This document shows positions 37,467 to 60,062 of a stretch of DNA of 64,000 nucleotides, piece after piece. Origin of the DNA: Embleya scabrispora (GTDB taxonomy: Bacteria > Actinomycetota > Actinomycetes > Streptomycetales > Streptomycetaceae); contig NZ_MWQN01000003.1 in assembly GCF_002024165.1 (NCBI RefSeq), positions 992,001-1,056,000 of the forward strand, given 5' to 3'. The notes beneath the pieces are model-generated. The model was not told the origin of the DNA and did no database searches. It was given only the letters and a program-made list of their open reading frames with translations. Each line of letters begins with the position of its first letter. Within the stretch, counting starts at the first letter, position 1. A program made the position numbers and the translations under genes.

Positions 37467-37520
37467 CGAAGCCGCCGCCCGGAACCGGTGCGGCGGACCC
37501 GAGAACCAGGAGGCTTCGCC

Positions 37521-37793: not shown

Positions 37794-37794
37794 T

Positions 37795-37836
37795 CCGTCG
37801 AGGGGGCGCCGCCCGACACCGGCGCCCCCTCGACGG
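37795..37836 (+). terminator. Terminator after copZ
   Basis: A perfect 16-bp stem (37795-37810 with 37821-37836) and a 10-base loop follow directly on the copZ stop codon. It would limit read-through to the next gene and raise the relative level of chaperone. Confidence 0.8.
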
Positions 37837-37980
37837 AGGACCTACGGCCCCGGTCGGCGACACCACCGGGCCCGCCGCGGTCCGGCGACCACCCGCCCCA
37901 CCGCCTCGAACGCGGCATCCGAATCCGACGCGGTGTCGAACGCGCCATCGAGCGAACGCGCCATCGAACAGGGAGAGCCC

Positions 37981-38982
37981 ATGAACACCGCAGTCAAGGT
38001 CGGCGCGTTCGGCGCCGGCGTCGTGCTGGCCTTCGGGGCCGCATTCGGCGTCGGCCACGCGGTCGGCCCGGTCGGCTCCGATCCCGCCCCCGCACACGGC
38101 GGCCACGGCGGCGCCCAGGCGGGCCCGTCGGGCGGCGCCCGCTCCCCCGGCGCCACACCGGCCGCCGCCGAGCTGCCCGGCGGCCTGCAGGTCTCCGACC
38201 GGGGCTACACCCTGGTCGCCCCCGCCGAGCCGCTGCCGGCCGGCACCACCACCGACTTCCGCTTCCGCGTACTCGGCCCGGACGGGCAACCGTGGACGCG
38301 CTACGACCGGGCCCACGACAAGGACCTGCACCTGATCGTGACCCGCCGCGACCTGTCCGGGTTCCAGCACGTACACCCCGTGCTCGGCGCCGACGGCACC
38401 TGGAGCGTGCCGCTCACCTTCGCGACCGCCGGCACGTACCGGATGTTCGCCGACTTCACGCCCACCGGCGACCCCGGCGGCACGCTCACCCTGGGCGCCG
38501 ACGTCGTGGTGGCCGGCGACTACGCACCGGCCGCGCTGCCCGCGCCGAGCCGCACGGCCGTCGTCGACGGCTACACCGTCACCCTGACCGGCGACCTGGC
38601 CACCGGGGCATCCGCACCGCTGACCCTGAACGTGAGCAGGGACGGCCGCCCCGTCACCGACCTCCAGCCCTACCTCGGCGCCTACGGCCACCTGGTCGCG
38701 CTGCGCCAGGGCGATCTGGCCTATCTCCACGTGCACCCGCAGGGCGCGCCCGGCGACGGCAGGACCCCCGCGGGTCCCGGCATCGGCTTCCAGGCCCAGG
38801 CCCCCAGCGCGGGCAACTACCGCCTGTACCTGGACTTCCAACACGAGGGCAGGGTCCGCACCGCCGAGTTCACCGTCACGGTGGGCGCCACGACCGCACC
38901 GGCCCCGCCGCCCGCCCGGTCCGCACAGTCCACGCAGCCCAACCAGCCCAACCAGCCCGAGCACGGCGAGCACGCGCACTAG
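37981..38982 (+). CDS. His-rich membrane-anchored copper-associated protein
   Basis: 333 residues. An N-terminal hydrophobic anchor (about 5-28) is followed by a His/Gly segment (HGGHGG) and two beta-rich domains. The motifs FQHVHP near residue 125 and LHVHPQG near 252 are repeated in both domains, and the chain ends HGEHAH. I recognise this as a protein commonly found in actinobacterial copper loci, but the function is not established; it may bind copper outside the membrane. It lies between copZ and copA. Confidence 0.75.
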   Translation: MNTAVKVGAFGAGVVLAFGAAFGVGHAVGPVGSDPAPAHGGHGGAQAGPSGGARSPGATPAAAELPGGLQVSDRGYTLVAPAEPLPAGTTTDFRFRVLGPDGQPWTRYDRAHDKDLHLIVTRRDLSGFQHVHPVLGADGTWSVPLTFATAGTYRMFADFTPTGDPGGTLTLGADVVVAGDYAPAALPAPSRTAVVDGYTVTLTGDLATGASAPLTLNVSRDGRPVTDLQPYLGAYGHLVALRQGDLAYLHVHPQGAPGDGRTPAGPGIGFQAQAPSAGNYRLYLDFQHEGRVRTAEFTVTVGATTAPAPPPARSAQSTQPNQPNQPEHGEHAH

Positions 38983-39017
38983 GGATGCCCGACACGTCCC
39001 CCGGTCGTGGCCGACGT

Positions 39018-39048
39018 TTGACGTTTTGATACCCCCCTAGGGTATAGT
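39018..39048 (+). promoter_or_regulatory. copA promoter with CsoR operator
   Basis: TTGACG (39018-39023) and TATAGT (39043-39048) flank ATACCCCCCTAGGGTAT (39029-39045), which overlaps the -10 box. Spacing of 19 bases is long, as in other copper-controlled promoters. Confidence 0.8.
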
Positions 39049-39135
39049 TGAGGCATGATCGCGGGACGGCACCGGCCGCCACCGCCCCCGGCCCCGCGAC
39101 GGCCGCGCAACCACCGATCCGAACAGGAGCAGGCG

Positions 39136-41439
<2,304 letters not shown>

Positions 41440-42822: not shown

Positions 42823-44418
42823 TCACTCCCGGCCGCTCCGCGGGGGACCGGGAAGGTCCGTACCGGCCGGGTCGCCGTGGTCGTCTCCCCGGCGCCGTGA
42901 CCCGGCACCGCCGGCCGCGCGTACCAGCCTGCGGGTGAACGTCTGTCGAGGGTCGGTCAGGATCCGCCCGGCCGGGCCCTGTTCGATCAGCCGGCCCGCG
43001 TCCAGGACCGCGATCCGGTCCGCGAGCCGTGCGGCCGCCGCCAGGTCGTGGGTGATGAACACCAGAGACAGGCCGCTGCGTTCCCGGGAACGGGCGAGCA
43101 GGTCCAGCAGCTCGACCCGGGCCGCGCCGTCCAGGCCCGAGGTGATCTCGTCGCAGACCAGCACGCCGGGTCGGGCAAGCAGTGCTCGGGCCAACGCGGC
43201 ACGCTGCACCTCGCCTCCGGACAGAGCGCCCGGTCGCCGCTGCGCCACGGGCGCGGCCAGACCGAGTTCGGCCAACGTGTCCAGCGCCTGCGTCCGAGCC
43301 GCGTCCGGATGCGCCCCGCGCAGCCGCACGGCGGTTCGGGCCACCTGGTCCACGACCGGCCGTCCCTCGTCGAACGAGGCCCGTGCGTCCTGGAACACGT
43401 ATTGCACGGACGCCAGTTGACCGGCGGTACGACCACGCAGCGAGCGGGGCAACGTGGTCCCCTCGAACCGGACCCGTCCTCGGTATCCGCTGTGCAGGCC
43501 CGCGAGGCAGCGTCCCAGCGTCGTTTTGCCGCTGCCCGAACGGCCCACCAGGGCCAGGCATTCGCCGGGCGCGACGGACAGGCTCACCCGATCCAGTACG
43601 CTCACCCGGCGTCGCATGCCCGCCGGGTATCCGGCCGTGAGGTCTCGAACCTCCAGCCGAACGGCGGTGTCGGGGTCCGTGTCGGTGTCGGGGTCGGTGT
43701 CGGCCCCCGGCGCCGGCGGCCGAACCTCCACCCGCTCCGGCGCCGGCAGCACCCGTGTCGGCGGCCCGAACCCGACCGGCCGCCCATCGGCCAACATCAC
43801 CGCCTCGTCCGCGATTCGGCGCACCACGTCGAGGTCGTGGCTGAGCAACAACACCGCGATCCCCTCCCCGGCCAGGGCCGCCAGCCGCTCCACGACACCC
43901 TGCTTGGTCAGCGCGTCCTGTCCCGTGGTCGGCTCGTCGGCGACCACGACCCGCGCTCCGAGCAGCAACGCCTGGGCCACCACGACACGTTGCTGCTGCC
44001 CGCCGGAGAGCTGATGCGGGAAGCGCCGTACGACCTCTTCCGGGTGCTCGATCCGCGCCGCCCGCAACGCCGCGTCCACCGCTGCCCGGCGCGAACCCCG
44101 GCCCCGCGCGCGTGTCCGCGCGATGTCCCGCAACAACACGCCGACCCGACGCACCGGGTTGAGCACCGTGCCGGGATGTTGCGGGACGTACCCGACCGCT
44201 CCCCCGCCCACGACCCGTACCTCGCCCGTCACCCGGGCGCCGGGCGGGAATTCGCCGAGCAGCGCCAGCGCGGTGGTGGTCTTGCCGCTGCCCGACGACC
44301 CCACCAGCGCGGTGATCCGCCCGGCCCGCAGGGTCAGATCCACCCCGTCCACGATCGTCCGACCACCCGCCTCCACCCGCAACGCGCGGACGACCGCCAC
44401 GGGTTCAGCGTCGTTCAT
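42823..44418 (-). CDS. Fused ABC ATPase (two nucleotide-binding domains) of Nik/Opp-type importer
   Basis: 531 residues carrying two complete ATPase domains, equivalent to NikD-NikE or DppD-DppF joined in one chain. Domain 1 (about 5-235) has Walker A GSSGSGKTT and signature LSGGQQQR; domain 2 (about 270-505) has GRSGSGKTT and LSGGEVQR. The linker is an Asp/Thr/Pro repeat (about 245-258). It overlaps the end of the permease gene. Last gene of the ten-gene operon; powers uptake of the ligand bound by the 46203 lipoprotein. Confidence 0.92.
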   Translation of the reverse strand: MNDAEPVAVVRALRVEAGGRTIVDGVDLTLRAGRITALVGSSGSGKTTTALALLGEFPPGARVTGEVRVVGGGAVGYVPQHPGTVLNPVRRVGVLLRDIARTRARGRGSRRAAVDAALRAARIEHPEEVVRRFPHQLSGGQQQRVVVAQALLLGARVVVADEPTTGQDALTKQGVVERLAALAGEGIAVLLLSHDLDVVRRIADEAVMLADGRPVGFGPPTRVLPAPERVEVRPPAPGADTDPDTDTDPDTAVRLEVRDLTAGYPAGMRRRVSVLDRVSLSVAPGECLALVGRSGSGKTTLGRCLAGLHSGYRGRVRFEGTTLPRSLRGRTAGQLASVQYVFQDARASFDEGRPVVDQVARTAVRLRGAHPDAARTQALDTLAELGLAAPVAQRRPGALSGGEVQRAALARALLARPGVLVCDEITSGLDGAARVELLDLLARSRERSGLSLVFITHDLAAAARLADRIAVLDAGRLIEQGPAGRILTDPRQTFTRRLVRAAGGAGSRRRGDDHGDPAGTDLPGPPRSGRE

Positions 44419-45253
44419 CGTTCCTCCCCCGCCCGCCCGGCGGCGTCCGCAGAGCCGTGTCGAACGCCAGATTCGTGCCCATCGACAGCGCCACGATCAG
44501 CGCCGCCGGTACTCCCACGGCCCACGGCTGAAGGAACAGACCGGGCCGGTTGCGGTCCACCATCACCGCCCAGTCGGCGGCGTCCGGGGCCACGCCCACG
44601 CCCAGGAACGCGGCGGTCGCCACCAGGTACAGCGCACTCGCGAGCCGGGTCCCCGCGTCGGCGGCCAGCGTGCGCCGGATCGCCCGCAGCGGGTAGCCGA
44701 CGGTGATCCGCCACCAGGACTCGCCCTGCATCCGCAGCGCCTCGACGGCGGGTCGCGCCGCCACCTCGGTGCCCGCCGCGGCCACCACCCGTGCGGCGTC
44801 CGGCATCGCCACCAGGGCGATCACCGGGACCAGTTCGGCCGGTCCCGGCCGAAACAGCGCGGCCACGAGCAGCACGACGAGCAGTGACGGCACCGCGATC
44901 AGCACGTCCAGCGGCCGCATCAGCGCCTCGGCCACCCATCCGCGCCGCGTCGCCGCGGCGGCCAGCCCGAGCGGCACCGCCACCACGTAGGCCAGGACCG
45001 TCGCGGCCACCGCCACCAACACCACCGATCGCCCGCCGAGCAACACCTGCCGCCACACGTCGCGTCCGGCGAAGTCGGTGCCCAGCCAATGCCCTTCGCC
45101 GGCGCTGAACGACACCGCCCGCGGCTGCACCGGTCCCGCGAACTCCGGCCCGATCAACGCGATGAGCAGCGGCAGCCCGATCAACCCGAGCGCCACCGCA
45201 TACCGCCGGCCGGCCCGCTCGCCCCGCCTAGGCCTTTCGGGAGTCGAGTTCAC
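44405..45253 (-). CDS. ABC importer permease, DppC/NikC type
   Basis: 282 residues from a GTG that shares one base with the preceding stop. About six membrane helices; the N-terminal HWLGTDFAGRDVW motif is the hallmark of the C-type permease of peptide/nickel/opine importers, and the coupling loop is near EALRMQGESWW. Confidence 0.9.
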   Translation of the reverse strand: MNSTPERPRRGERAGRRYAVALGLIGLPLLIALIGPEFAGPVQPRAVSFSAGEGHWLGTDFAGRDVWRQVLLGGRSVVLVAVAATVLAYVVAVPLGLAAAATRRGWVAEALMRPLDVLIAVPSLLVVLLVAALFRPGPAELVPVIALVAMPDAARVVAAAGTEVAARPAVEALRMQGESWWRITVGYPLRAIRRTLAADAGTRLASALYLVATAAFLGVGVAPDAADWAVMVDRNRPGLFLQPWAVGVPAALIVALSMGTNLAFDTALRTPPGGRGRNDERR

Positions 45254-46206
45254 TACGCCGCCACCTCCACGCGTGGCGCCAGCCGCAACGTCACAAGGTC
45301 GGCGACGAGGTTGACCGAAACGGTCACCACACCGAACACCAGCGCCAGCCCCTGGATCACCGGGATGTCGCGGGCGGCGACCGCGTCCACCAGCACGGTG
45401 CCGAGTCCGGGGATCACGAACAGCGCCTCGACCACGATCACGCCGCCCAGCAACCAGTCGCAGGTACGGGCGAGTTGCTGGCTCGCGGGGGCAAGGGCGT
45501 TCGGCAGCGCATGCGTCCAGCACACCCGGGCACCGGACAGGCCCTGCCGTCGCGCGTGTGCCACGTACGGCGACGCCATCGCCTCGATCATGCCCGCCCG
45601 CACCAGCCGGGCGATCGTACACACCGGCCGGGACAGCAGCACCACCACCGGCAGCACCAGCACTGCCGGACGGCCGAGCAGATCACCGTCGGTGCCCACC
45701 GCCGTCGGCGGCAACCACCGCAGTTCCAGCGCGAACAGCGTGACCAGCAACACTCCGAGCGCGAACTCCGGAACCGCGTGCACCGCCGCCGTCAGCGCGC
45801 TGATCAGGCGATCCACCGGACCACCCTCGCGCCGCGCGGCGAGCACCCCCAGACCCACCGACAGCGGCACGAGCAGCACGACCGTGACCCCGGCCAGTAC
45901 CAGCGTCGGGCCGAACCCGTCGGCGAGCAGGTCGGCGACCGGCCGGCCCGAGACCAGCGAGGTGCCCAGGTCACCGTGCGCCAGACGCTCGATCCAGGCG
46001 CCGAGCCGCCCACCGACCGAACGATCCAGACCCATCGACTCCCGGATCCGCGCGATCCGTTCCGGGTCGGGCTGGTCGCCCGCCAGGGCCACCGCCGCGT
46101 CCCCGGGCAGCGCCTCGGTCAACGCGAAGATCAGCACCACCACGGCCGCGATCTGGACCGGACCGAGCAGCAGTCGGCGTGCCGGGCGGCCACGATCCGC
46201 GCTCAC
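45253..46206 (-). CDS. ABC importer permease, DppB/NikB type
   Basis: 317 residues from a GTG overlapping the substrate-binding-protein stop. About six membrane helices, the large extracytoplasmic loop after helix 1 (RIARIRESMGLDRS) and the EAMASPYVAHARRQGL coupling loop identify the B-type permease. It pairs with the overlapping downstream permease. Confidence 0.9.
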   Translation of the reverse strand: MSADRGRPARRLLLGPVQIAAVVVLIFALTEALPGDAAVALAGDQPDPERIARIRESMGLDRSVGGRLGAWIERLAHGDLGTSLVSGRPVADLLADGFGPTLVLAGVTVVLLVPLSVGLGVLAARREGGPVDRLISALTAAVHAVPEFALGVLLVTLFALELRWLPPTAVGTDGDLLGRPAVLVLPVVVLLSRPVCTIARLVRAGMIEAMASPYVAHARRQGLSGARVCWTHALPNALAPASQQLARTCDWLLGGVIVVEALFVIPGLGTVLVDAVAARDIPVIQGLALVFGVVTVSVNLVADLVTLRLAPRVEVAA

Positions 46207-47801
46207 CCGAGCCAGACCTTGTCGAATCGGGCCCAGTCCAGCGTATTGGCGGGCGCGTTCGTCGCCACCCCGCGCACCCGGTTCGCGGTGGCCACGATCC
46301 AGTCCGCGAAGCCCCAGATCAAGAACCCGCCCTCATCGTGGAGGCGGCGCTGCATGCGCTCGTACAGCGCGGTGCGCGACGCCTCGTCGGGGGTGGACTG
46401 GATCTGCCGGTACAACTCGTCGAAGTCCCGGTCCCGCCAGTGTGTGGCGTTGGTGGTGGATCCGGTCAACAGCCGCTGGGAGACGTGCGATTCGATCGGC
46501 ATCGCGCCCGAGCGGTAGGACGCGAGGGTGCCGGAGGTGAGGATGTCCTTCCAGTAGGTGTCCTTGTTGCCGATCCGCACCTGCACGGTGACCCCGGCCT
46601 TTGCCGCCTGTTCCTTGAAGATCCCCGCGGCCTCGACGAATCCGGTGGCGGCGGGCGCGGTGTCCAGGGTGACCGTCAATCCCTCGGCACCGGCCTCGCG
46701 CAGCAGCGCCCGGGCCCGGGCCAGGTCCTGGGTGCGCTGCGGCAGGCTCGCCGCGTAGTAGCGATATCCCTTGCCGAACAGGTCGTTGCCCACCTCTCCG
46801 GCTCCCGACAGCGCCCCGTCCACCAGTTCTCGACGGTCGGCGATCAGGCAGAACGCCTGCCGGACGCGCCGGTCGTCGAACGGCGGCCGATCGGTCTTCA
46901 TCACGAAGCCCTGCATCGCGCTGTTCCGCAGCCGCAGCACGGTGATCCGCCCCCGGCCCTCGTGCACCCGCGCGGTGGCCGGGTTCAACTCGTGCGCGTA
47001 CTCGACCTGACCGCCGAGCAGCGCGTTGGTCCGCGCCGACTCCTCGCCCGCGATCACGAACTCCAGTTCGTCCAGGTGCGGACCGCCGTCCCAGTAGCCG
47101 TCGTTGCGCCGCAGCAGCAGCGAACTCCCGGGTTTGAACGACCCGAACACGAACGGCCCCGATCCCACGGGCCGCTCGAAGGAGTCCGCACCGGCGGGCA
47201 CGATATAGGCGCCGAAAGCCGCGAGCACGTTGGGGAACTCGGCATAGGGCAGCTTGAGCCGGAATTCCACCGTGGCCGGGTCGACCACCCGGCTCGCGGC
47301 ATGGTCGATCGACTCCAGCGCGGCCTTGGCCCGAAACGCCCGCGCGGGGTCGGCGATCCGGCGGAAGCTGTACAGCACGTCCTCGGCGGTCACCGGCCGG
47401 CCGTCGTGGAAGGTCGCCGGGCGCAGCCGCACCCGCCAGGTGTCCAGCGTCGCGTTCGGCTCCCACCCGGCGGCGAGTCGGGGTACCGGGGCCAGGTCCG
47501 CGCCGTAGTCGGCGAGCTTGTCGAACAGCGCCTTGGCCCGGGCCACGTCGACGAACAGATTGGCCAGGTGCGGATCCAGCGTCTCGTTGGCGCCGCCGCC
47601 CGGGAAGGCCGCCCGCAACCGCCCGCCGCGCCTCGGGGTTCCCTCGCCCGGCGTACCGGCGCGCGCCCCGGGCTCGGCCGTGCCGCCGGTGCAGCCCACC
47701 GCCAGGGTGAGCGCGGCGACGCCCCCGGCGGTCAGGAAGGCCCGGCGTGAGGTGCCGGCGCGGGATGCGCCGAGGGGTATGCGGGGGTGGATCCGGCTCA
47801 T
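46203..47801 (-). CDS. Family 5 substrate-binding lipoprotein (Nik/Opp/Cnt type)
   Basis: 532 residues. A Tat-like SRRAFL motif and lipobox (AVGC) precede a SBP_bac_5 domain (FHDGRPVTAEDVLYSFRRI; RRNDGYWDGG). Such proteins bind peptides, nickel complexes or opine-type metal chelates such as staphylopine (CntA). Here the neighbours argue for capture of the metal-loaded product of this operon. It starts 49 bases after the methyltransferase. Confidence 0.9.
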   Translation of the reverse strand: MSRIHPRIPLGASRAGTSRRAFLTAGGVAALTLAVGCTGGTAEPGARAGTPGEGTPRRGGRLRAAFPGGGANETLDPHLANLFVDVARAKALFDKLADYGADLAPVPRLAAGWEPNATLDTWRVRLRPATFHDGRPVTAEDVLYSFRRIADPARAFRAKAALESIDHAASRVVDPATVEFRLKLPYAEFPNVLAAFGAYIVPAGADSFERPVGSGPFVFGSFKPGSSLLLRRNDGYWDGGPHLDELEFVIAGEESARTNALLGGQVEYAHELNPATARVHEGRGRITVLRLRNSAMQGFVMKTDRPPFDDRRVRQAFCLIADRRELVDGALSGAGEVGNDLFGKGYRYYAASLPQRTQDLARARALLREAGAEGLTVTLDTAPAATGFVEAAGIFKEQAAKAGVTVQVRIGNKDTYWKDILTSGTLASYRSGAMPIESHVSQRLLTGSTTNATHWRDRDFDELYRQIQSTPDEASRTALYERMQRRLHDEGGFLIWGFADWIVATANRVRGVATNAPANTLDWARFDKVWLG

Positions 47802-47850
47802 GGGTCGTTCTCTCCGTGTCGGCGGTGGGAATGGGCGAGGTGGTGCCGGG

Positions 47851-48642
47851 TCAGCGGCGGCGGGCGACCACGTGCATGCGGTCGCCGTGCCCGGTCGTGG
47901 CGGACGGGGCGCCCTCGGTCCAGGGCGGGTCGGTACGCGGTCCCGGGCGGTCGTGGAGGTCGAGCACGTCGAAGCCGGCGACGTCGAGGAAGTAGCCCAG
48001 CTCGCGGGGGAACAGCAGCCGCCACGCGGAGAGTTGCACCCGGGCCGGCACTCCGTCGTTCGACGTCCATTCCCGTCGCCGGCGCAGCAGTTGGGCTCTG
48101 TGGTCGATCCACAGGGTGGTGCGCGAGGTGTAGGTGACCCCGGCGCGCACGACGGTGTCGGTACGGGGTTCGGTTTCGGGGCGGGCACCCTCGGCGCCCT
48201 GCAGAAAATAGGCGCCGTTGCGCAGCTCGGCGACGAACAGGCCGCCGGGCACGAGGTGTTGCCGACACCGGTCGAGGAACGCCGCGAGGTCGGTGTTCTC
48301 GTGGCAGTACAGGAGCGCGCTGTCCAGGCAGACCACGGCGTCGAAGACGCGGCCGAGGTCGAAGTCGCGCATGTCGGCGAGGCGGTAGTCCGGGCCGGGG
48401 TGGTGGGTGCGGGCGTGGCGCACCATCGCCGCCGAGGTGTCGATGCCGATCACCTCGCGGCCGGCGTGCGCCTGCAACCAGGCCGCGTCGCGTCCGGTGC
48501 CGCACCCCACGTCCAGCACGCGCGGCCCGGCGCCGTGGCGCCGCAGGGTCGCGTCGGTCCACCGGGCGGCGAGCCGGCCGGGGTCGGGGAAGCGGCGTTC
48601 GTAGAGTTCGGGGGTATCGGTCAGGAGGTTGCGGGTATTCAC
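47851..48642 (-). CDS. Class I SAM-dependent methyltransferase
   Basis: 263 residues. The SAM-binding motif VLDVGCGTGRDAAW is near residue 41, with the acidic loop GIDTSAAMV and VCLDSALLY following. The C-terminal ~100 residues form a substrate cap. It lies between the exporter (37 bases) and importer (49 bases) genes, so it may tailor the small molecule. The target atom is unknown. Confidence 0.85.
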   Translation of the reverse strand: MNTRNLLTDTPELYERRFPDPGRLAARWTDATLRRHGAGPRVLDVGCGTGRDAAWLQAHAGREVIGIDTSAAMVRHARTHHPGPDYRLADMRDFDLGRVFDAVVCLDSALLYCHENTDLAAFLDRCRQHLVPGGLFVAELRNGAYFLQGAEGARPETEPRTDTVVRAGVTYTSRTTLWIDHRAQLLRRRREWTSNDGVPARVQLSAWRLLFPRELGYFLDVAGFDVLDLHDRPGPRTDPPWTEGAPSATTGHGDRMHVVARRR

Positions 48643-48679
48643 GTCGGTTCGCTCTCGGCTTCGTACTGGTCGCGGATGC

Positions 48680-50005
48680 TCATCGGGGCGGGTTCTCGGC
48701 CGCGCGGCGGTCGGCCCCGGGGTGGTCGGGGGTACGCGGCGCCGCGGCCGGCTCGGCGGCGGCGGTTCCGGGCGGGATCGGCGGCAGCGTCCCGCCCCGG
48801 CGCAGCCATCCCATCGCCGAGGCCGACACCAGGCCGAGGAGCGCGCAGCAGGCCCACGGCAACCACGCCCGGCCGCTGTCCGAACCGGTGTCCATCGCCC
48901 AGCCGATCCCGGCGTTCCCGGCCGCCGCGGCGATGCCGGACGCCGCGTAGAACAACCCGAAGCAGGTGCCGGTCAAGCGGTCCGGGCCGAAGGCGGGAAC
49001 CAGTTCGAGCACGAACGGCTGGGCGATCATCACGCCCAGATGCAGCAGCAGGGCGGCGACGATCAGCGGCACCATCCGCACCACCGCGTCCAAGGTCCCG
49101 TCCGGGCCGGCGCCGCCGGCGACCACCATCGGCGGCAGAAAGGCCAGGCCCGTCACGACCGTTCCGATCGTGATCCACCGCGTCCGGTCGCCGCGGGTCT
49201 GGAGGAGGCGGGTGATCCGCAGTTGCAGCAGCAGGTTGGCGACCGTCCCGGTGAGGAACAGCAGCCCGACCGCGGCCTCCTGGCCGGTCGCGTGCCGAAC
49301 CCCGTCCGGGAGCAGCAGATACAGCTGCGTTTCCAGGCCGTACAGCCCGGCCATCGCGATCGAGAACGCCACGAAGGCGCGGTTGCCCACGACTTCGCGC
49401 CAGTCGGCGATCACCGACCGCTCCGGCGCGGGCACCGGACGCGCCGGCAGGACGAGCGCCTGGGCGATCGTCAGCGCCGCGAACAGCACGGCCGCGGTCA
49501 GTGCGGCGGCGGTGAAGTCGACCAGGAGCAGCAGGCTGCCGAGCAGCGGGCCGAGCAGGGCGCCGGTGGTGGCGAAGACGTTGAACAGGGCGAACGCCTC
49601 GGCCCGGCGCGGTCCCGCCTCACGGGCGAGGTAGGTGCGCACCGCCGGGTTGAACAGCGCGCCGGCCAGTCCGCTGAGCAGCGCGGCGGCCAGCAGTACC
49701 GGCAGTCCGTCGCCCAGCGCGAAGAGCCCGAACCCCACGGTGCGCAGCGCACATCCGGCGATGATCACGCCGCGCGCGCCGAGCCGGTCGGCGGCGGATC
49801 CGCCGAGGATGAACAGGCCCTGCTGCGCGAGGTTGCGCACGCCCAGGACGATTCCGACGACGGCGGCGGACATTCCCAGGTCGTCGGTGAGGTGCGTGGC
49901 CAGATACGGGATCAGCAGGTAGAAGCCGGTGTTCACGCCGAGCTGGTTGACCAGCAACAGCCGCACCGCGAGCGGGAATTCGCGCACCGCGCGAAGTGTC
50001 CTCAT
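48680..50005 (-). CDS. MFS efflux transporter
   Basis: 441 residues, 12 predicted helices, with the motif-A-like GGSAADRLGARGVIIAG loop between helices 2 and 3. It overlaps the epimerase stop by four bases. Position inside a biosynthetic operon indicates export of the product, as CntE does for staphylopine. The last ~35 residues are a Pro/Ala-rich cytoplasmic tail. Confidence 0.9.
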   Translation of the reverse strand: MRTLRAVREFPLAVRLLLVNQLGVNTGFYLLIPYLATHLTDDLGMSAAVVGIVLGVRNLAQQGLFILGGSAADRLGARGVIIAGCALRTVGFGLFALGDGLPVLLAAALLSGLAGALFNPAVRTYLAREAGPRRAEAFALFNVFATTGALLGPLLGSLLLLVDFTAAALTAAVLFAALTIAQALVLPARPVPAPERSVIADWREVVGNRAFVAFSIAMAGLYGLETQLYLLLPDGVRHATGQEAAVGLLFLTGTVANLLLQLRITRLLQTRGDRTRWITIGTVVTGLAFLPPMVVAGGAGPDGTLDAVVRMVPLIVAALLLHLGVMIAQPFVLELVPAFGPDRLTGTCFGLFYAASGIAAAAGNAGIGWAMDTGSDSGRAWLPWACCALLGLVSASAMGWLRRGGTLPPIPPGTAAAEPAAAPRTPDHPGADRRAAENPPR

Positions 50006-51054
50006 CGGTCGGCCCCGATCGTGCGCCGCACGCCGAGCCCGGGCGTGTGTGCGGCGGCGCGCACCGTGCCGTCGGTGCCGCCCACGCCGGTCCACGGATC
50101 GTGCGCGAGCAGCAGATGCCCGTCCAGGTCGACCCAGCGGGCCCGGTCGACGAGGTGTACGGCGGGCGCGATGCCGAGCGAACTGCCGGTCAGGCAGCCG
50201 AACATGATCTCGGTACCGCTGCCGCGCAGTTCCTCGACGAGCCGCGACGCCGCGCGCGGACCGCCGCATTCGGCGAGTTTGAGGTTGACCCCGGGAATCC
50301 GTCCCGCCAGTCGCAGTACGTCCTCACGGGTGACCGCGTCCTCGTCGGCGATCACCGGAATCGGCGCGTGCCGGGCGATCCGCGCCAGCACATCGGGCCG
50401 CCCGGCGGCGATCGGCTGCTCCACCGCCTCGACTCCGAGAAGGGCGAATCGCGGCAGCAGTTCCAGTGTCCGTGCCTCGCTCCACGCGCCGTTGGGATCG
50501 AGCAGCAGCCGCGCGTCCGGCACCGCGTCGCGCACGGCCGCGACCCGGGCCAGATCGTGCGCCGGATCGGGCGCACCGGCCTTCACCTTGAGCACGGTGA
50601 ACCCGAGTCCGGCCCACCGTGTCGCCGCGTGGGCCGCGTGCTCGATCCCGCCGAGCCCGATGGTCCTGGCGGTCACCGCGACGGGCGCCCGTTCGGCGCC
50701 CAGCAGCCGATGTACGGGCCGCCCGGCACGCTTGCCCACCAGGTCGAGCAACGCCGCGTCGAGCGCGGCCCGCACCCCGAGCGGCAGCCCGCTCGGTCCG
50801 GTTCCGGCCAACTCCCTCGAAGCACTCTCCGGTTCGCCGAACCGCCCCAGCCACGGCCGAGCCACCCGCGCCAGCGCCGCCCCGATGTCATCGGCCGCCA
50901 GCCCCAGTCGAGTGCTGCCCAGCGCCTCACCCCACCCGTGCGTGCCCTCGTGCTCGACACGCACCCAGACGGCATCGCGCCCGGCCATCACCGACCGCGA
51001 AATGCGCAACGGCTCGGCCAGTTCGAGCCGGGTGGTCTGCCATGTGAGCCTCAT
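50002..51054 (-). CDS. Enolase-superfamily (dipeptide epimerase / MLE-like) enzyme
   Basis: 350 residues. Catalytic KxK lies in VLKVKAG, metal ligands in LLLDPNG, EQPI and ADEDAV, and the second-strand lysine in VNLKLAECGG, so a full muconate-lactonising-subgroup active site is present. This subgroup includes L-Ala-D/L-Glu epimerases and N-acylamino-acid racemases. It probably epimerises an amino acid or dipeptide-like intermediate. Overlaps neighbours by four bases on both sides. Confidence 0.85.
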   Translation of the reverse strand: MRLTWQTTRLELAEPLRISRSVMAGRDAVWVRVEHEGTHGWGEALGSTRLGLAADDIGAALARVARPWLGRFGEPESASRELAGTGPSGLPLGVRAALDAALLDLVGKRAGRPVHRLLGAERAPVAVTARTIGLGGIEHAAHAATRWAGLGFTVLKVKAGAPDPAHDLARVAAVRDAVPDARLLLDPNGAWSEARTLELLPRFALLGVEAVEQPIAAGRPDVLARIARHAPIPVIADEDAVTREDVLRLAGRIPGVNLKLAECGGPRAASRLVEELRGSGTEIMFGCLTGSSLGIAPAVHLVDRARWVDLDGHLLLAHDPWTGVGGTDGTVRAAAHTPGLGVRRTIGADR

Positions 51055-52226
51055 GCGGACCCCGATATGGAGGTCTCGGGCGTGCTCGCCACGCGGGGCA
51101 CGGGCACGGCGGCCGACGCGGGCGCGTGTTCCCGCGCCGACGGCCCCGGGCCGCCCGGCGTGCGCGCGACTGTCCGACAGCGCGCCCAGCCGCCGACCTC
51201 GACGATCCCCGGGTCCAGGATCTCCACCGGGTGTGTGGGCACGCGCACGCCGTCGAGGCCGTGCGCGGCGCAGAACGCGTCGTCGTAGACGGTGCCCAGG
51301 TACCGGTGCGGGCCGTCCGGGAAGATGGTGGCCACGGTCGTGCCGGGGTGGACCCGGGCCGCCCACGCGGCGACCAGGGCGACCGCGCCGGTGCTCCAGC
51401 CGCCGCTGACGAAGCTGCCCCGGGCCAGCCGACGGCATGCGTCGACGGCGGCGGCCGGGCCGACCCAGTGCACCTCGTCGAACGCGTGGTGGGCGACGTT
51501 GCGCGGCCGGATGCTGCTGCCGAGGCCGCGCATCAGGCGTGGTCGGGCGGGCTGGCCGAAGATGGTCGAGCCGACCGAGTCGACGCCGATCACGGTCAGC
51601 GCCGGCCAGCGCCGGCGCAGCGGCCCGATCAGTCCGGCGCTGTGCCCGCCGGTGCCCACGCTGCACACCAGGATGTCCACGTGGTCGAGCTGATCGACGA
51701 GTTCGGCCGCCATCGACGCGTAGCCCGCCGGGTTGTCGGGGTTGTTGTACTGGTCCGGCCAATAGGCGCCGGGGATGCCGCGCAGGATCTCGCGCAACCG
51801 GGCGAGTCGGGCGGCCTGCCAGCCGCCGACCGCCGCCGGTTGTTCCACCAGGTCCAATTCGGCGCCGTGCGCGCGCAACAACTGCCGCATGGACGGTTCG
51901 AGTTCGCGGTCGCCGACGAGCCGGACCGGATGGCCGAGGGCCTGGCCGGCGAAGGCCAGGCCGATGCCCAGCGTGCCCGAGGTGGACTCGACCACGAGCG
52001 CGCCCGGGCGCAGTTCGCCGCGTCGGCGGGCGCCGCGCAGCATCGACACGGCGGCCCGCGCCTTCATGCCGCCCGCGCCCAGGTATTCGAGCTTGGCCCA
52101 AAACCCCGGGTGCGGGCAGGGCAGTTCGATGCCCACGCGGACCACGGGGGTGTGGCCGAGCAGCGCCAGCAGGTCGGGGTTGGCACCGGTCGAACCGGCG
52201 GCGCGCGGAAACGGGACGGTGTTCAC
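51051..52226 (-). CDS. PLP-dependent cysteine synthase/SbnA-like enzyme
   Basis: 391 residues from a GTG. The PLP lysine is in GAGGMKARAAV, the substrate loop in ESTSGTLGIG and the phosphate loop in VGTGGHSAG; the core fits fold-type II beta-replacement enzymes. SbnA, a relative, joins phosphoserine and glutamate in siderophore assembly. A comparable C-N or C-S bond-forming beta-replacement is likely here. The usual SbnB dehydrogenase partner is missing. The last ~60 residues are an extra tail. Confidence 0.85.
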   Translation of the reverse strand: MNTVPFPRAAGSTGANPDLLALLGHTPVVRVGIELPCPHPGFWAKLEYLGAGGMKARAAVSMLRGARRRGELRPGALVVESTSGTLGIGLAFAGQALGHPVRLVGDRELEPSMRQLLRAHGAELDLVEQPAAVGGWQAARLARLREILRGIPGAYWPDQYNNPDNPAGYASMAAELVDQLDHVDILVCSVGTGGHSAGLIGPLRRRWPALTVIGVDSVGSTIFGQPARPRLMRGLGSSIRPRNVAHHAFDEVHWVGPAAAVDACRRLARGSFVSGGWSTGAVALVAAWAARVHPGTTVATIFPDGPHRYLGTVYDDAFCAAHGLDGVRVPTHPVEILDPGIVEVGGWARCRTVARTPGGPGPSAREHAPASAAVPVPRVASTPETSISGSA

Positions 52227-53137
52227 GCGGCACCTCCGGATCGACGCGCCGCACTCGCACCCTCGGCCCGGCGCACCGCGCCCGGATCTCCGGACCGGCG
52301 CCCGGCACTCGGCCCGCCGTAGCGGTGGACCACACCGGGGCCGCCGTCCAGCCAGAAGAACGGATAGGGCTCGGCGCACACCGCGCTCACCCCCGCGCCG
52401 ACGAAGTGCGGCAGGATCGCGCTGCCGGTCTGGGCGAACATCACCAGCGGCTTGCCGGTGCTCGCGGCGTGGACGCGCAGCGGCTCGAAGGTGTCGTTGC
52501 CCAGCGTCATGCCGGAGGCCAGGATCGCGTCGCAGCGGTCCAGTTCGGCTTCGGCGTCGCGGCGGATCTCCTCGCCCCATTCGGTGCGCCCACCCGCGAA
52601 ATCGCACGGCACGCAGCCGATTCCGAGCGTGCGCAGCCGCTCCAGCAGCGAATTGACCACGCCCACGACCAGTACGGTGCGCACCCGCTCCGGCGGCAGC
52701 AGGTCGACCACGGCGCGGGCGCGGGCCCGGGACTTGGTCAGCGAGCTCCCGGCCGGCAGCGGGTACGCCCTGGCGCCGTGCTCGGGGCCGTGCGGGCGGG
52801 CCCGCATCAGGTGGGCGTCCAGGGCGGCGATCCGGACCGGCGCGAGCGGATGCGCCAGCAGGTCGGCGACGCGGGCCCCGACGCAGTCGTCGATGGTGTC
52901 GGCGGGCAGCGTGCCCGGTTCGGCGCCACACGAGCCGACCACCGCGCCCAATCGCACACTCAGCACCTCGTTGCGGTAGCCGGTGGCGCGTTCCGCGTGC
53001 CGGACGGCCTGCACGGTGCGAAAGGCGGTGCTCACCCGCTCCTGGTTCGGGTCGGCCCCGAACTCCCCGGCGCGGACCCGGACGAGCAGTTCGTCGAGGG
53101 TGCCCGGGGGCTTGGGCACGGATCGCGGCCGGCTCAC
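52223..53137 (-). CDS. DUF4213/DUF364 (putative heavy-metal chelation) protein
   Basis: 304 residues from a GTG. The N-terminal DUF4213-like part (about 10-110) precedes a Rossmann-like DUF364 domain with the characteristic ASGMTLGNDTFEPL and a later GKPLVMFAQTGSAILPHFVGAGV-type stretch (split here between strands). Pfam describes both as putative heavy-metal chelation domains. Contains several cysteines (CGAEP, IDDCVG, IGCVPCDF). Coupled to its neighbours by four-base overlaps. Its role could be metal handling or an unknown step. Confidence 0.75.
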   Translation of the reverse strand: MSRPRSVPKPPGTLDELLVRVRAGEFGADPNQERVSTAFRTVQAVRHAERATGYRNEVLSVRLGAVVGSCGAEPGTLPADTIDDCVGARVADLLAHPLAPVRIAALDAHLMRARPHGPEHGARAYPLPAGSSLTKSRARARAVVDLLPPERVRTVLVVGVVNSLLERLRTLGIGCVPCDFAGGRTEWGEEIRRDAEAELDRCDAILASGMTLGNDTFEPLRVHAASTGKPLVMFAQTGSAILPHFVGAGVSAVCAEPYPFFWLDGGPGVVHRYGGPSAGRRSGDPGAVRRAEGASAARRSGGAA

Positions 53138-54423
53138 CCGGACACCGCCGACACGGCCGCGTAGCGGGGGCGCAGCCGACCCAGCATGCGCTCGGCCGAC
53201 TCGCGCGCCCCGGCGCCCCGGGAGGCGGTCAGCACGTGGCCCAGGTATTCGTTGTTGCTGGTCGCGGCCCGTACCGCCCGCCCCGGTTCGGCCAGGGTCA
53301 GCTCGACCACGCCCGGCTCGCCGCGTACCGCGTCGGCGCCGTCGATGCCGGCGAGCGTACCCGTCCCGTCGGCCGACAGGTCGCGTTCGTCCGGCAGCAG
53401 CAGACCGATGGCCGCACTGCCGACGCCGGTCTCGCGCACCGTGAGGTCGGGACGCCGGCCGAGCGCGACGTCGACACAGGCCACGACCAGGTCGACGCCG
53501 GTGACGTGCCGGATCAGTTCGGTGATGCGATTGCCCGCCGGCCTGGGGTTGACCTCGATCGTTCGCGGCCCGCCGGGGGTGAGGCGGATCTCGGTGTGCG
53601 CCACGACGTGGTCCAGGCCCAGCGCCTCCACCGCGCGTACGGCGGTGTCCGCGGCGGCCCGCATCCCGTCCGGGTCCAGGGCGGCCGGGAACATGTGTCC
53701 GGTCTCCACGAACGTCGGCTCGGCGCCCAGGCTCTTGTCGGTGACGCCGACGACGTGGGTGTGCCCTGCCCGGGTGACCGTCTCGACGCTGACTTCGGGG
53801 CCGGTCAGGTATTCCTCGATCAGCACCACCGGCGCCCGGCGCTGTCCGCGCGCGTTCACCGTGAGGTCCGTGATCGCCCGCTGTGCGCGGGCCAGTTCGA
53901 CCTCGTCGTGGACGACGCGGACCAACATCCCGGCGCACAGGTCCACCGGCTTGACCACGACGGGGTAGCCGATCTCGCGCGCCGCGGCACGTGCCCGCGC
54001 CCGGTCCGCGCACAGCGCGAAGCGCGGGCCGGGGACGCCGGCGTCGGCCAGGCGCAGTCGGGTCAGATCCTTGCGGCAGGCCGCCTCCACCGCCTCCGGC
54101 GCGGGAGCGGGCAGCCCGAGCCGGGCGGCGATCCGCGCGGTGGCCGGCAGGTAGTAGTCGCACGCGGACAACACCCCGTCGAACGCGAACACCTCGTGCA
54201 GTCGTTCGACCGCGGCCGGCAGTTCCGCCGCGTCGTTGGTCTCCGTCGTGACGATGTTGCGCGCGGACAACAGCGGATGCGGCGCCGCGCCGGACGTTGC
54301 GCGCAGGTAGTGGTGCAGATCCCGGGTGAGGAACGTGAACTCGTGTCCGGCCTCGTGGATCGCCCGGGGCAACAACCCGCTCATCGCCCCGACCCAGCTT
54401 TCGACAACCAACAGATGACCCAC
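53134..54423 (-). CDS. ATP-grasp ligase
   Basis: 429 residues. The ATP-grasp core is clear: YPVVVKPVDLCAG lysine strand, EEYLTGPEVSVE hinge, and the Mg-binding RTIEVNPRPAGNRITE. Such enzymes join a carboxylate to an amine through an acyl phosphate. First gene of the operon, so translation starts here after a Zur-like promoter. Relatives make dipeptides and pseudopeptides; the substrates here are unknown. Confidence 0.88.
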   Translation of the reverse strand: MGHLLVVESWVGAMSGLLPRAIHEAGHEFTFLTRDLHHYLRATSGAAPHPLLSARNIVTTETNDAAELPAAVERLHEVFAFDGVLSACDYYLPATARIAARLGLPAPAPEAVEAACRKDLTRLRLADAGVPGPRFALCADRARARAAAREIGYPVVVKPVDLCAGMLVRVVHDEVELARAQRAITDLTVNARGQRRAPVVLIEEYLTGPEVSVETVTRAGHTHVVGVTDKSLGAEPTFVETGHMFPAALDPDGMRAAADTAVRAVEALGLDHVVAHTEIRLTPGGPRTIEVNPRPAGNRITELIRHVTGVDLVVACVDVALGRRPDLTVRETGVGSAAIGLLLPDERDLSADGTGTLAGIDGADAVRGEPGVVELTLAEPGRAVRAATSNNEYLGHVLTASRGAGARESAERMLGRLRPRYAAVSAVSG

Positions 54424-54491
54424 CGAACTCCCTCTCCGACCGCGGCGACGGCTCTCTCGCAGAGCATCGATCCGTCGCGACGGTATCGGGA

Positions 54492-54508
54492 ATGGTTTTC
54501 ATTTTCAA
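54492..54508 (-). promoter_or_regulatory. Zur-like operator/promoter of the ten-gene operon
   Basis: On the minus strand the site reads TTGAAAATGAAAACCAT. It contains the perfect half site TGAAAATGA of the actinobacterial Zur box and the 11-mer ATGAAAACCAT also found upstream of the zinc importer (22801). TTGAAA could double as the -35 box. It lies about 70 bases before the ATP-grasp start, the same distance as at the importer. Confidence 0.6.
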
Positions 54509-57019: not shown

Positions 57020-57841
57020 GTGGCCGAGTTCATACCCGACGCCGAATCGGCTTTACCAGAGCGGAAGATCGACACCGAGGTGGCGCATACCGCCCGGGTG
57101 TGGAACTACTGGCTCGGCGGCAAGGACAACTACCCCGTGGACCGGGAGACCGGCGACCAGATCGCCGCGATCCACCCCGGCACCCGCGATTACGCCCTCG
57201 CCGACCGGCAGTTCCTCGGTCGGGCGATCCGCTATCTGGCCCACGATCTGGGCATCCGGCAGTTCCTGGACATCGGCACCGGACTGCCGACGGCCGGGAA
57301 CACCCACGAGATCGCACAGAGTGTGGCGCCGGAATCCCGCATCGTCTACGTCGACAACGATCCCCTGGTGCTGGTGCACGCCCGGGCGCTGCTGACCAGC
57401 AGTCCGGAGGGGGCCACCCGCTACATCGACGCCGATCTGCGCGACGTCGACGAGATCCTGGCCCGGGCGTCGAAGACCCTCGACTTCGACCGCCCCATCG
57501 CCCTGGTCCTGCTCGGCGTGATCATCTTCGTGAACGACGACGACGAGGCCTACGGCACGGTACGCCGCCTCCTGGACGCGCTTCCGTCCGGCAGCCATCT
57601 CGCGCTGTCCCACACGGTGACCAGTCCGCCCGCGCCGCCGGATGTGGACGACGCGGTGGCCTTCTGGAACGCGCACGGCACGCCCAAGCTCAAGCAGCGC
57701 TCACCAGAGGGCATCGCCCGCTTCTTCGACGGCCTGGAACTGCTCGAACCGGGCGTCGTCACCTGTTCCCACTGGCGGCCGGACACCGCGGTCCGCGCCC
57801 CCGAGGTGGCCATGTGGGGCGCGGTGGGCCGCAAACCGTAG
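57020..57841 (+). CDS. SAM-dependent methyltransferase, DUF574/PF04672 family
   Basis: 273 residues from a GTG. The family start ARVWNYWLGGKDNYPVDRETG and the SAM site FLDIGTGLPTAGN are present, with VYVDNDPLVLVHARALL following. This family is highly expanded in Streptomyces; targets are unknown. Stands alone; 155 bases before the convergent chaplin gene. Confidence 0.9.
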   Translation: MAEFIPDAESALPERKIDTEVAHTARVWNYWLGGKDNYPVDRETGDQIAAIHPGTRDYALADRQFLGRAIRYLAHDLGIRQFLDIGTGLPTAGNTHEIAQSVAPESRIVYVDNDPLVLVHARALLTSSPEGATRYIDADLRDVDEILARASKTLDFDRPIALVLLGVIIFVNDDDEAYGTVRRLLDALPSGSHLALSHTVTSPPAPPDVDDAVAFWNAHGTPKLKQRSPEGIARFFDGLELLEPGVVTCSHWRPDTAVRAPEVAMWGAVGRKP

Positions 57842-57995
57842 CCCGTCGCGCACACGACGAAGCCGGGGCCGCGCCGCAGGGGGAGCGCCGCCACCGGCCG
57901 CGTGTGGCGGCCCCTCGGATCCGTCCGCATCGGGGGGCCGCCGGTACATCGGTGTCACGCGCCGTCAGCGGAGGACGGACGGCACGAACCTCGGA

Positions 57996-58322
57996 TCAGC
58001 CGTGCTGACCGTGGTGCGGGGCCTCGTGGTGGTCACCGTGGTGCGGGGCCTCGTGCTTGCCGTGCTCGTCGCCGTAGCCGCCGTCGACGTTCGCGCAGAC
58101 GTTGCCGATCGTCGGGTTGAACAGCCCGATGATGTTGATGCTGTTGCCGCAGAGGTTGATCGGCACGTGGATCGGAACCTGGATGTTGTTGCCGGACAAC
58201 ACGCCGGGCGAGCCGACCGCCGCGCCATTCGCCTCGGACCCGGCACTGGCGACGCCGGCACCCGCCATGACGAGAGCTGCGACACCGGCGGCCACGGAGG
58301 CCGACTTCTTGAACGTGTACAT
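57996..58322 (-). CDS. Short chaplin with a His-rich C-terminal tail
   Basis: 108 residues. Signal peptide to about 27 (AGAGVASA), then one chaplin domain (about 40-80) with GVLSGNNIQVP, paired cysteines 58 and 76 and the GNSINIIGLFNPTIGN core. Chaplins self-assemble into amyloid-like films that let aerial hyphae break the surface. After the domain come about 28 extra residues, of which positions 87-108 hold nine histidines in EAPHHGDHHEAPHHGQH, absent from normal short chaplins. Divergent from a multicopper oxidase. Confidence 0.88.
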   Translation of the reverse strand: MYTFKKSASVAAGVAALVMAGAGVASAGSEANGAAVGSPGVLSGNNIQVPIHVPINLCGNSINIIGLFNPTIGNVCANVDGGYGDEHGKHEAPHHGDHHEAPHHGQHG

Positions 58323-58568
58323 GTGATCTCCGTTTCGGATGGCGCCGCGGGTGGCGCGATCGACCGGTGCAACGAGGGGAATTCCGGGAGGCAACTGGCG
58401 TTCGCGCTCGTTCACCCGACCGGCGGCACGGATCGCGGCCGACGGAGTGGCCCGGCGCCAGGGCGTGTTCGCGGGACCGGGGCGGGGTACTCGCGCCGGA
58501 TCCCGCCGGCACCTCCGGCGGGCGACGCCCCCATCGCGAGCCGACCTCAAGGAAGCAGGGCCGCACCG

Positions 58569-60062
58569 TTGCCTGTCCCCTCCCACCCCACCCGCCGCTC
58601 GCTGCTGTTCGGTACGGCCGGCACCGCCGCGCTGCTCGCCGCCGGCACCGGCACCCGGTTCGGCACCGGCGCCCCCGCGACCCTCGCGCCGGTTTCCCGC
58701 GCCGGCTCGGCCGCCGATGTCGCGGTCCTGCTCACCGCCGCGCCGACCACGGTCGACCTGGGCGCGCGCGACGTGGCCACCTGGGGATTCGGCGACCGCA
58801 TCCCCGGCCCGGAGATCCGCGTCGCGGCCGGCGGCACCGTGGCCGCTCGGCTGCGCAACGACCTGCCGCAGGACACCACGGTGCACTGGCACGGAGTACG
58901 GATCGACCAGCGGATGGACGGCGCCCCCGGGTTCAGCCAGGCCCCGGTTCCGGCGGGCGGCGACTTCGACTACCGCTTCGTCGTGCCCGACCCGGGCACG
59001 TACTTCTACCACTCGCACGTGGGTACCCAACTCGACCGCGCGCTCTACGGCGCGCTGGTGGTCGAGGACCCGGCCGAGCCGCTGTCCTACGACGCGGAGT
59101 GGACCGTCGTGCTCGACGACTGGATCGACGGCACGGGCACCGACCCGGACGCGGTCCTGACGGAACTGCGCGGCAACCCCAAATCACCGCAGGACATGCG
59201 AAGCACCCTCCTCGGCGGCAGCGCCGGACACGTCGCCTACCCCCACTACCTGGTCAACGGCCGCGCCCCGGAGGCCCCGGAGGTGTTCGAGGAGGCACCG
59301 GGTCGGCGGGTGCGCCTGCGCCTGATCAACGCCGGCGCGGACACGGCGTTCCGGGTCGCGCTGGGCGGCCACCGGCTGACCGTCACCCACACCGACGGCT
59401 TCCCGGTGCTGCCGGTGCGGGTGGACACGCTGCTGATCGGGATGGGCGAGCGCTACGACGTGCTGGTCACCCTCGAGGACGGGGTGTTCCCGCTGGTCGC
59501 CGCCGCGGAGGGCAAGAACGCCCGGGCCTTCGCGGTGGTCCGCACCTCGACCGGCGACGCCCCGCCGGCCTCGGCCGACGTCCCGGAACTGGATCGCCGG
59601 GTGCTCGACCTCGCCGACCTGACCGCCGACCCGTCGGTCGACCCGGGCGACGAACCGGCCCGCGAGGTGGACCTGGTACTGCGCACGGGTGGTGCGCGCG
59701 GCACGTCGTGGACGATCGGCACGGCGGACGCGCCCGACGACACATCGGTGCGGGTGGCGGTCGCCGACGGCGAACGGGTCCGCCTGTCCTTCACCAACAA
59801 CTCCCGCATCTGGCACCCCGTCCACCTGCACGGACACACCTTCCGGGTGCGCCGGTCCGGCGGCGGCGGGCCGCTCAAGGACACCGTGGTGGTCCGCCCC
59901 CGGGAGACCGTCACCGTGGACCTGCTCGCCGACAACCCCGGCGAGTGGATGCTGCACTGCCACAACGTCTACCACAGCGAGTTGGGAATGATGGCCACCC
60001 TCGGCTACGGCGACGCCCCGCCCGACACGATCATGCCCGGCATGGCCCCCGAACGGCACTGA
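58569..60062 (+). CDS. Tat-exported multicopper oxidase
   Basis: 497 residues. The start is a TTG at 58569, preceded by AAGGAAG; no ATG or GTG fits. The Tat signal TRRSLLFG lies at 8-15. The four copper-binding motifs are intact: HWHG, HSH, HPVHLHGH and HCHNVYHSELGM. It oxidises a phenolic or metal substrate with O2 outside the membrane. Divergent from the His-rich chaplin with 246 bases between. Confidence 0.9.
   Translation: MPVPSHPTRRSLLFGTAGTAALLAAGTGTRFGTGAPATLAPVSRAGSAADVAVLLTAAPTTVDLGARDVATWGFGDRIPGPEIRVAAGGTVAARLRNDLPQDTTVHWHGVRIDQRMDGAPGFSQAPVPAGGDFDYRFVVPDPGTYFYHSHVGTQLDRALYGALVVEDPAEPLSYDAEWTVVLDDWIDGTGTDPDAVLTELRGNPKSPQDMRSTLLGGSAGHVAYPHYLVNGRAPEAPEVFEEAPGRRVRLRLINAGADTAFRVALGGHRLTVTHTDGFPVLPVRVDTLLIGMGERYDVLVTLEDGVFPLVAAAEGKNARAFAVVRTSTGDAPPASADVPELDRRVLDLADLTADPSVDPGDEPAREVDLVLRTGGARGTSWTIGTADAPDDTSVRVAVADGERVRLSFTNNSRIWHPVHLHGHTFRVRRSGGGGPLKDTVVVRPRETVTVDLLADNPGEWMLHCHNVYHSELGMMATLGYGDAPPDTIMPGMAPERH

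Follow-up and report, generated by a model that had tools for sequence, protein, structure and literature searches.

A ten-gene operon occupies the minus strand of a 64-kb stretch of Embleya scabrispora DNA (positions 42823-54423 by open reading frame coordinates; the whole 64-kb stretch is called the window below). We consider it likely that this operon is a Zur-repressed system that makes, exports and re-imports a small chelator, and the metal concerned is probably zinc. The operon begins with genes for an ATP-grasp amino-acid ligase (53134-54423, 429 amino acids, GTG start), a DUF364 protein (52223-53137, 304 amino acids, GTG start), an SbnA-like pyridoxal phosphate enzyme with a C-terminal extension (51051-52226, 391 amino acids, GTG start) and an enolase-superfamily epimerase of the dipeptide epimerase/DgcA type (50002-51054, 350 amino acids). 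These are followed by a major facilitator superfamily (MFS) transporter that is a putative exporter (48680-50005, 441 amino acids) and a class I methyltransferase (47851-48642, 263 amino acids, GTG start). The last four genes encode an ATP-binding cassette (ABC) importer, which consists of an SBP_bac_5 substrate-binding protein (46203-47801, 532 amino acids), a NikB/OppB-type permease (45253-46206, 317 amino acids, GTG start), a NikC/OppC-type permease (44405-45253, 282 amino acids, GTG start) and a fused double ATPase of the NikD plus NikE type (42823-44418, 531 amino acids). Four biosynthetic enzymes, one tailoring enzyme, an exporter, an importer and a regulatory site are thus brought together in one transcription unit.

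All ten families were assigned with Pfam, and those of the SbnA-like enzyme, epimerase, MFS protein, permeases and ATPase also with NCBIfam. Further assignments came from the nearest solved relatives (ligase and methyltransferase), a profile match and predicted structure (DUF364), alignment and a tree (SbnA-like enzyme), conserved motifs (epimerase) and homology scans (binding protein). The binding protein begins with what looks by eye like a twin-arginine lipoprotein signal, SRRAFLTAG...AVGC. The original prediction, made from the DNA alone, described four-base overlaps from the ATP-grasp gene through the MFS gene, gaps of 37 bp before the methyltransferase and 49 bp before the binding protein, and overlapping importer genes. 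The gene coordinates agree at all four of the first junctions and at both gaps, and the importer junctions overlap by 4, 1 and 14 bases. The predicted family names likewise agree with Pfam and NCBIfam, except that DUF4213 was not matched and that the DUF364 and SbnA models scored under their cut-offs. The predicted absence of a nicotianamine synthase, an opine dehydrogenase and SbnB also held: none was matched by Pfam or NCBIfam among the ten proteins, and neither was any non-ribosomal peptide synthesis (NRPS) protein. The four matches in this genome to TIGR03944, the model for SbnB (ornithine cyclodeaminase family), lie on other contigs.

We assessed the conservation of the operon in the best 80 of 286 places found by scanning named genomes with the DUF364 protein from the window. 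All ten genes were present in the same order and on the same strand in 68 of these 80 loci, with locus L040 counted as complete despite fragmentary matches. Because this order is kept while the median protein identities across the 80-locus set are 60-78%, we conclude that the operon is not a chance arrangement. The median junction is a four-base overlap at eight of the nine junctions, and a 46.5-base gap precedes the binding protein gene. A contig end truncates six of the 80 loci, and in two others (L024 and L029) the methyltransferase is the sole absent gene. Larger departures from the ten-gene order are found in L030, L035, L092 and L096, of which L092 has no ATP-grasp match. In a draw of 396 genomes from the phylum, matches within the E-value limit were confined to the Streptomycetaceae, except for two distant genomes whose match was partial or weak. 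Three of four Embleya genomes have the gene, and the operon proteins of Embleya hyalina are 87-98% identical to those of the window. The MFS and methyltransferase matches of E. hyalina (L022, between 14458 and 15398) lie about 940 bases apart, compared to 37 bases in the window. We found no published description of the operon in the open-licence literature, a result that falls short of proof.

Upstream of the ATP-grasp gene, motif and matrix searches identify a promoter on the minus strand (54480-54508) that consists of TTGAAA (54508-54503), a 17-base spacer (54502-54486) and TACCGT (54485-54480). This spacer is occupied by a Zur-type site, a 23-base match (54505-54483, minus strand) that scores 29.8 bits with a matrix built from 76 non-Embleya promoters. 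A -35/-10 pair at 17-base spacing was found in 58 of 78 promoters and at 2 of 16,000 random places, a count with some circularity, since the inner bases of both hexamers fall within the matrix. The sequence TGAAAATGATTTTCA was matched at at least 11 of 15 positions upstream of the ATP-grasp gene in 77 of 79 regions, compared to 0.56% of shuffles (80 regions were scored, and L075, mis-cut to 11,991 bases, was dropped). The published Zur motif of Streptomyces coelicolor is described as a 15-base, 7-1-7 element, tGaNNatSatNNtCa (PMC5472717). When we scored its 11 specified positions in 77 upstream regions (excluding L092, which has no ATP-grasp match, and L075 and L099, which have a short upstream region), at least nine were matched in 61 regions, ten in 33 and all 11 in none. 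The density of such sites was 4.5 per kb upstream of the operons and 0.095 per kb elsewhere. Allowing one mismatch, the published motif occurs at 136 places in the window's own genome, and in that form is too unspecific to use.

Matrix scores of the 76 training promoters are circular, and those of the znuA, importer-only, Embleya and sister-locus sites described below are independent of training. Consistent with the Zur-like site of the original prediction, the operon promoter is the best matrix match in the 64-kb window. The second best (23.8 bits) is a site upstream of znuA (22798-22820, plus strand), which lies outside the operon and serves as an internal control. The znuA match (21751-22566) belongs to a unit at 20052-22737, 32 kb from the operon, that also includes ATPase and permease genes named by eye. 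In 200 single-base shuffles of the window no place reached 23.8 bits, the maximum being 14.0, and only eight sites of at least 20 bits were found in 1.48 Mb outside operon promoters. Two other Embleya genomes hold a similar box (29.8 and 26.3 bits), and another ZnuA gene, at a different place in the window's genome, is likewise preceded by a Zur-type site. Full-length ZnuA loci from eight genomes had an upstream site of at least 18.5 bits in 11 of 13 cases, the exceptions being L197 and L200. We also asked if the site could be an iron box and rejected this, since the best match to such a box was just 8-11 of 19 positions in the 77 upstream regions of 250 bases. Altogether, these patterns suggest that the operon is very probably Zur-controlled. 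As the site fills the promoter spacer, zinc-bound Zur (Zn-Zur) likely represses transcription by blocking RNA polymerase there.

The original prediction had proposed a search for conserved co-occurrence of the ten gene families. Among 295 Streptomyces genomes, with DUF364 orthologues required to have at least 62% identity, a DUF364 orthologue was found in 68 and a binding-protein orthologue in 67. Both genes were present in 65 genomes, DUF364 alone in three, the binding protein alone in two and neither in 225. The two genes thus occur together 65 times and singly five times; a Fisher test on these counts takes no account of kinship among the genomes. They lie within 9 kb of each other in 60 of the 65 genomes, and in four of the other five they are on separate contigs.

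The five genomes with a single gene differ from one another. In G598, which has DUF364 only, a short contig stops after the methyltransferase gene. In the other two DUF364-only genomes (G612 and G513), the genes from ATP-grasp to epimerase are retained behind a Zur-type site, with no importer match found and no complete exporter found beside the synthesis genes. The two genomes with the binding protein alone (G576, locus L232, and G603, locus L233) retain the importer by itself within the 19 kb opened, and no DUF364 match was found in either genome. A Zur-type site lies 0.2-0.5 kb upstream of each importer, scoring 44.6 bits in G576 and 49.1 bits in G603, and in G603 an MFS gene remnant lies between site and importer. 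Because synthesis has been lost while a regulated receptor is retained, these two strains are candidate users of a chelator made by others, as expected of such strains. They make strain-to-strain sharing of the chelator testable.

What reactions could the biosynthetic proteins carry out? The ATP-grasp protein contains an L-amino acid ligase C-terminal domain (Pfam), its nearest solved relatives are BL00235 and BacD, and its orthologues conserve EVNPRPAGNRITE. The orthologue alignments used here, and for the epimerase and SbnA-like motifs below, exclude any protein that scored below 150 bits or had a stop within its match. In the epimerase orthologues, the KxK motif and second lysine, the D/E/D metal ligands and the DxD motif of the enolase superfamily are all conserved. 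The protein was aligned to the dipeptide epimerase-like structures 3iji and 4gfi, and on these features it belongs to the dipeptide epimerase/DgcA branch, with a DgcA model score of 217.7 bits, below the cut-off of 400. SbnA is the nearest solved relative of the SbnA-like enzyme, whose orthologues conserve GGMKAR and GTGG, and we infer that this is a beta-replacement enzyme. In a phylogenetic tree, a branch with support of 98/100 groups the operon enzymes with those of SbnA-MFS mini-clusters, apart from SbnB-paired SbnA, the enzyme of an ethylenediaminesuccinic acid hydroxyarginine (EDHA) locus, and the cysteine-synthase-like rest; some branches are long and their details unsure, and the EDHA row is itself a long branch of unsure placement. 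The nearest solved relatives of the methyltransferase are N-methyltransferases.

The DUF364 protein scored 22.7 bits against PF04016, just below the Pfam cut-off of 23, and a profile match to the solved structure 3npg gave an E-value of 7e-4. Its predicted structure (predicted local distance difference test 90, predicted template modelling score 0.87) has as its first fold matches 3l5o and 3npg, both uncharacterised DUF364 structures, with template modelling scores of 0.57-0.61 by target length and 0.46-0.51 by query length at a root-mean-square deviation of 6.5-7.2; the other fold matches are partial. By profile score and predicted fold, the protein belongs to DUF364, and its orthologues share a set of kept residues with three distant relatives. 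A resemblance to nicotianamine synthase was considered and rejected, as the 50 fold matches listed include no nicotianamine-synthase-like entry; nor do they include an opine dehydrogenase. No assigned reaction for DUF364 was found among the literature listed, and the 2010 DUF364 structure paper suggests a possible role in metal chelation (PMC2954201).

A second kind of DUF364 locus bears on this protein. Of the 295 Streptomyces genomes, 55 encode a distant relative (35-40% identity), 121 have one kind or the other, and two have both. We opened 22 of these sister loci (L136, L137 and L205-L224), which are not a random sample: L137 came from the 396-genome draw, and L136 and 20 others from the first 27 of 55 rows, with six skipped. 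All 22 had an SbnA-like match and at least one Zur-type site of 18 bits or more with the operon-trained matrix, a level at which 1.48 Mb of background holds 8-12 sites; the best sites scored 24.7-42.3 bits. In 19 loci a site is no more than about 0.5 kb from one of the unit's matched genes, and in L205, L216 and L217 the nearest is some 3.5 kb away. FecB/FecCD-type importer matches were found in 18 of the 22, a close relative of a GHMP-kinase-like gene (named by eye) in 13, and a relative of a small methyltransferase in eight. We rejected the idea that the two SbnA-like groups form one pair co-inherited with DUF364, since the operon enzyme groups with the mini-clusters and the sister loci form a separate long branch. 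The chances seem to us about even that DUF364 and an SbnA-like enzyme define a further NRPS-free class of zincophore, in which DUF364 would be an enzyme that builds the metal-binding core. Such a class would have two kinds of Zur-controlled locus, one with a Nik/Opp importer and the other mostly with a Fec-type one, and would be present in at most 121 of the 295 Streptomyces genomes sampled.

In the mini-clusters L140 (4210-8684), L141 (9885-14075) and L142 (8912 onwards), the SbnA-like and MFS proteins are 55-57% and 43-44% identical to those of the window. Their best Zur-type score does not exceed 2 bits and their best iron-box match does not exceed 12 of 19 positions, and L140 and L142 have the upstream stretch GGTGGCGCATATAGGAG in common. 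A SerA-like gene lies behind L140 and L141, the two of the three that were scanned for it, which would point to O-phosphoserine as the donor there and therefore perhaps in the operon too. Elsewhere in the window, at 36957-41439 and 57642-60062, copper-type genes (CsoR-like, CopZ-like, P-type ATPase and multicopper oxidase) were recognised by eye.

The gene content, conservation, coupling of the parts, site, families and catalytic motifs are seen directly in the genomes; regulation, each individual reaction, the metal and the transport direction are predictions of the mechanism that we propose here. When zinc is plentiful, Zn-Zur on the promoter spacer would stop transcription, and under zinc starvation the ten gene products would be made. 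The chemistry of the product can be suggested only tentatively. The SbnA-like enzyme would use an activated serine, most likely O-phosphoserine, and link it to another amino acid through the amine of the latter, so that the product would be an aminopolycarboxylate bearing a secondary amine. Since the operon lacks SbnB, this unit would stay intact instead of being split to 2,3-diaminopropionate. The ATP-grasp ligase could then add an amino acid to it and the dipeptide-epimerase-like enzyme invert one centre, with DUF364 performing some further step and the methyltransferase N-methylating the product in most strains. Export of the chelator would fall to the MFS protein, and recovery of its metal complex to the importer with its lipoprotein receptor, pair of permeases and double ATPase. 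The make-export-reimport operon of the original prediction is therefore supported by the Zur-type site, by the coupling of synthesis, exporter and importer, and by the absence of the known enzymes, with the chelator itself a prediction from the genes.

Several observations weigh against this proposal. By the published motif, 16 of the 77 upstream regions lack a site with at least nine of 11 positions. The window's own site matches nine, a level reached by 12 places in the 64 kb, two of which reach ten; its best matrix register, counted by eye, matches eight. Its 29.8 bits are also weaker than the Streptomyces median of 44.2 bits. A complete adjacent importer is missing beside the biosynthetic genes in L035, L234, L235, the decayed L030, L092 and L096. 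In G466, the importer and methyltransferase genes lie 660 kb from the synthesis genes, with no Zur-type site of at least 10 bits in the 19 kb around the importer. Orthologous operons lacking the importer or the Zur-like site were what the original prediction had named as evidence against itself; most loci have both, and the exceptions, which include L035, L234, L235 and G466, are a minority. The NikA and CntA models match the importer below their cut-offs, and SbnA is the best NCBIfam model for the SbnA-like enzyme, at 243.7 bits against an equivalog cut-off of 349.95 (TIGR03945). Finally, Zur control, if it holds, would not prove that zinc is the metal for which the ligand is made.

A first alternative is a metallophore made under zinc control that serves several metals, or a single metal other than zinc (nickel, cobalt, copper or iron), a reading that overlaps with ours. 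Broad-spectrum opine metallophores are made under zinc control, and the Nik/Opp-class importer of the operon has a binding protein and an ATPase whose top-scoring models are of nickel type. We nevertheless regard this as unlikely, since in scans for Zur-type and iron boxes it was the Zur-type site that proved to be conserved, and the iron-box matches upstream of the operons fall below the 15 and 14 of 19 seen for the two iron boxes of the inferred EDHA locus (L135) of S. stelliscabiei. A second alternative is that the operon is a member of the known family of ethylenediaminedisuccinic acid (EDDS) and EDHA aminopolycarboxylates with extra tailoring enzymes, which could still be a zinc metallophore. 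The SbnA-like core enzyme, the related importer and the Zur control of the zincophore EDDS would fit such a product. Against it, the operon has no SbnB-like match, its SbnA-like enzyme falls outside the branch with EDHA and SbnB-paired SbnA (the EDHA placement being unsure), and its ATP-grasp, DUF364 and epimerase proteins found no match in 19.9 kb of L135, so that we judge it slightly less probable still. ATP-grasp ligases of the BL00235/BacD type make dipeptides, and the operon could instead produce a bacilysin- or dapdiamide-like antimetabolite or a signalling peptide, with its own exporter, an importer for peptides and an incidental Zur site. Such a peptide appears very improbable given that nearly all tested loci have the Zur-type site upstream, that the importer is tightly coupled to synthesis, and that the importer-only genomes retain the site.

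Orthologues aside, the closest binding protein in three genomes is that of L135 (37% identity, 264 bits; the next scored 122 bits). Like that of the window, the L135 importer combines a pair of permeases with a binding protein and a fused double ATPase; its proteins are 36-42% identical to their counterparts in the window, and the SbnA-like enzyme of L135 is 35% identical. The nine genes of L135 encode a MATE-family exporter, an SbnA-like enzyme, a LysA-like decarboxylase, an SbnB-like protein, an arginine/enduracididine-hydroxylase-like protein and the importer. We infer that L135 is an EDHA siderophore locus because its gene content fits the cluster described for S. scabiei, reported as 11 kb spanning scab_5231-5311 (PMC8914351). 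These are nine locus tags by number count, as in L135, where no Zur-type site was found (best matrix score -2.5). The operon is not the EDHA cluster itself; the locus and genes differ, and S. stelliscabiei holds both. The EDHA locus resembles the operon in its SbnA-like enzyme, importer makeup and exporter gene, and differs in its SbnB-like protein, decarboxylase, hydroxylase-like protein, MATE exporter and iron boxes.

On gene content, this locus is a closer comparison than staphylopine. The staphylopine and pseudopaline (Cnt) systems have an exporter for a small amino-acid chelator, and staphylopine has a Nik/Opp-class importer. The operon shares the exporter and importer class but has no nicotianamine-synthase-like or opine dehydrogenase match, and the Cnt models score below cut-off (CntA 51.7 of 800 bits, CntC 70 of 440, CntD 250.2 of 380 and CntF 254.2 of 385). 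[S,S]-EDDS of Amycolatopsis japonicum is a Zur-controlled, NRPS-free aminopolycarboxylate zincophore made with an SbnA-like enzyme and an SbnB-like partner; the SbnA-like enzyme is common to both systems and the SbnB-like partner is found in EDDS only. No ATP-grasp, DUF364 or epimerase protein is known in the EDDS route. Of the aminopolycarboxylate core pair, as seen in L135, the operon has the SbnA-like member and lacks the SbnB-like one. Coelibactin of S. coelicolor is described as the product of a Zur-repressed zincophore cluster (PMC5472717) and as made by non-ribosomal peptide synthesis (PMC3430247). It resembles the operon in being a Zur-linked zincophore cluster in Streptomyces, and differs in its use of NRPS, which is absent among the operon's ten proteins. 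Judged by its genes, then, the pathway is different from each of these systems. Known zincophores are made by nicotianamine/opine chemistry, by NRPS assembly or by EDDS-type chemistry. If our proposal is correct, the operon would represent a further zincophore route, common across a genus that has been studied intensively, and would place DUF364 in a testable pathway.

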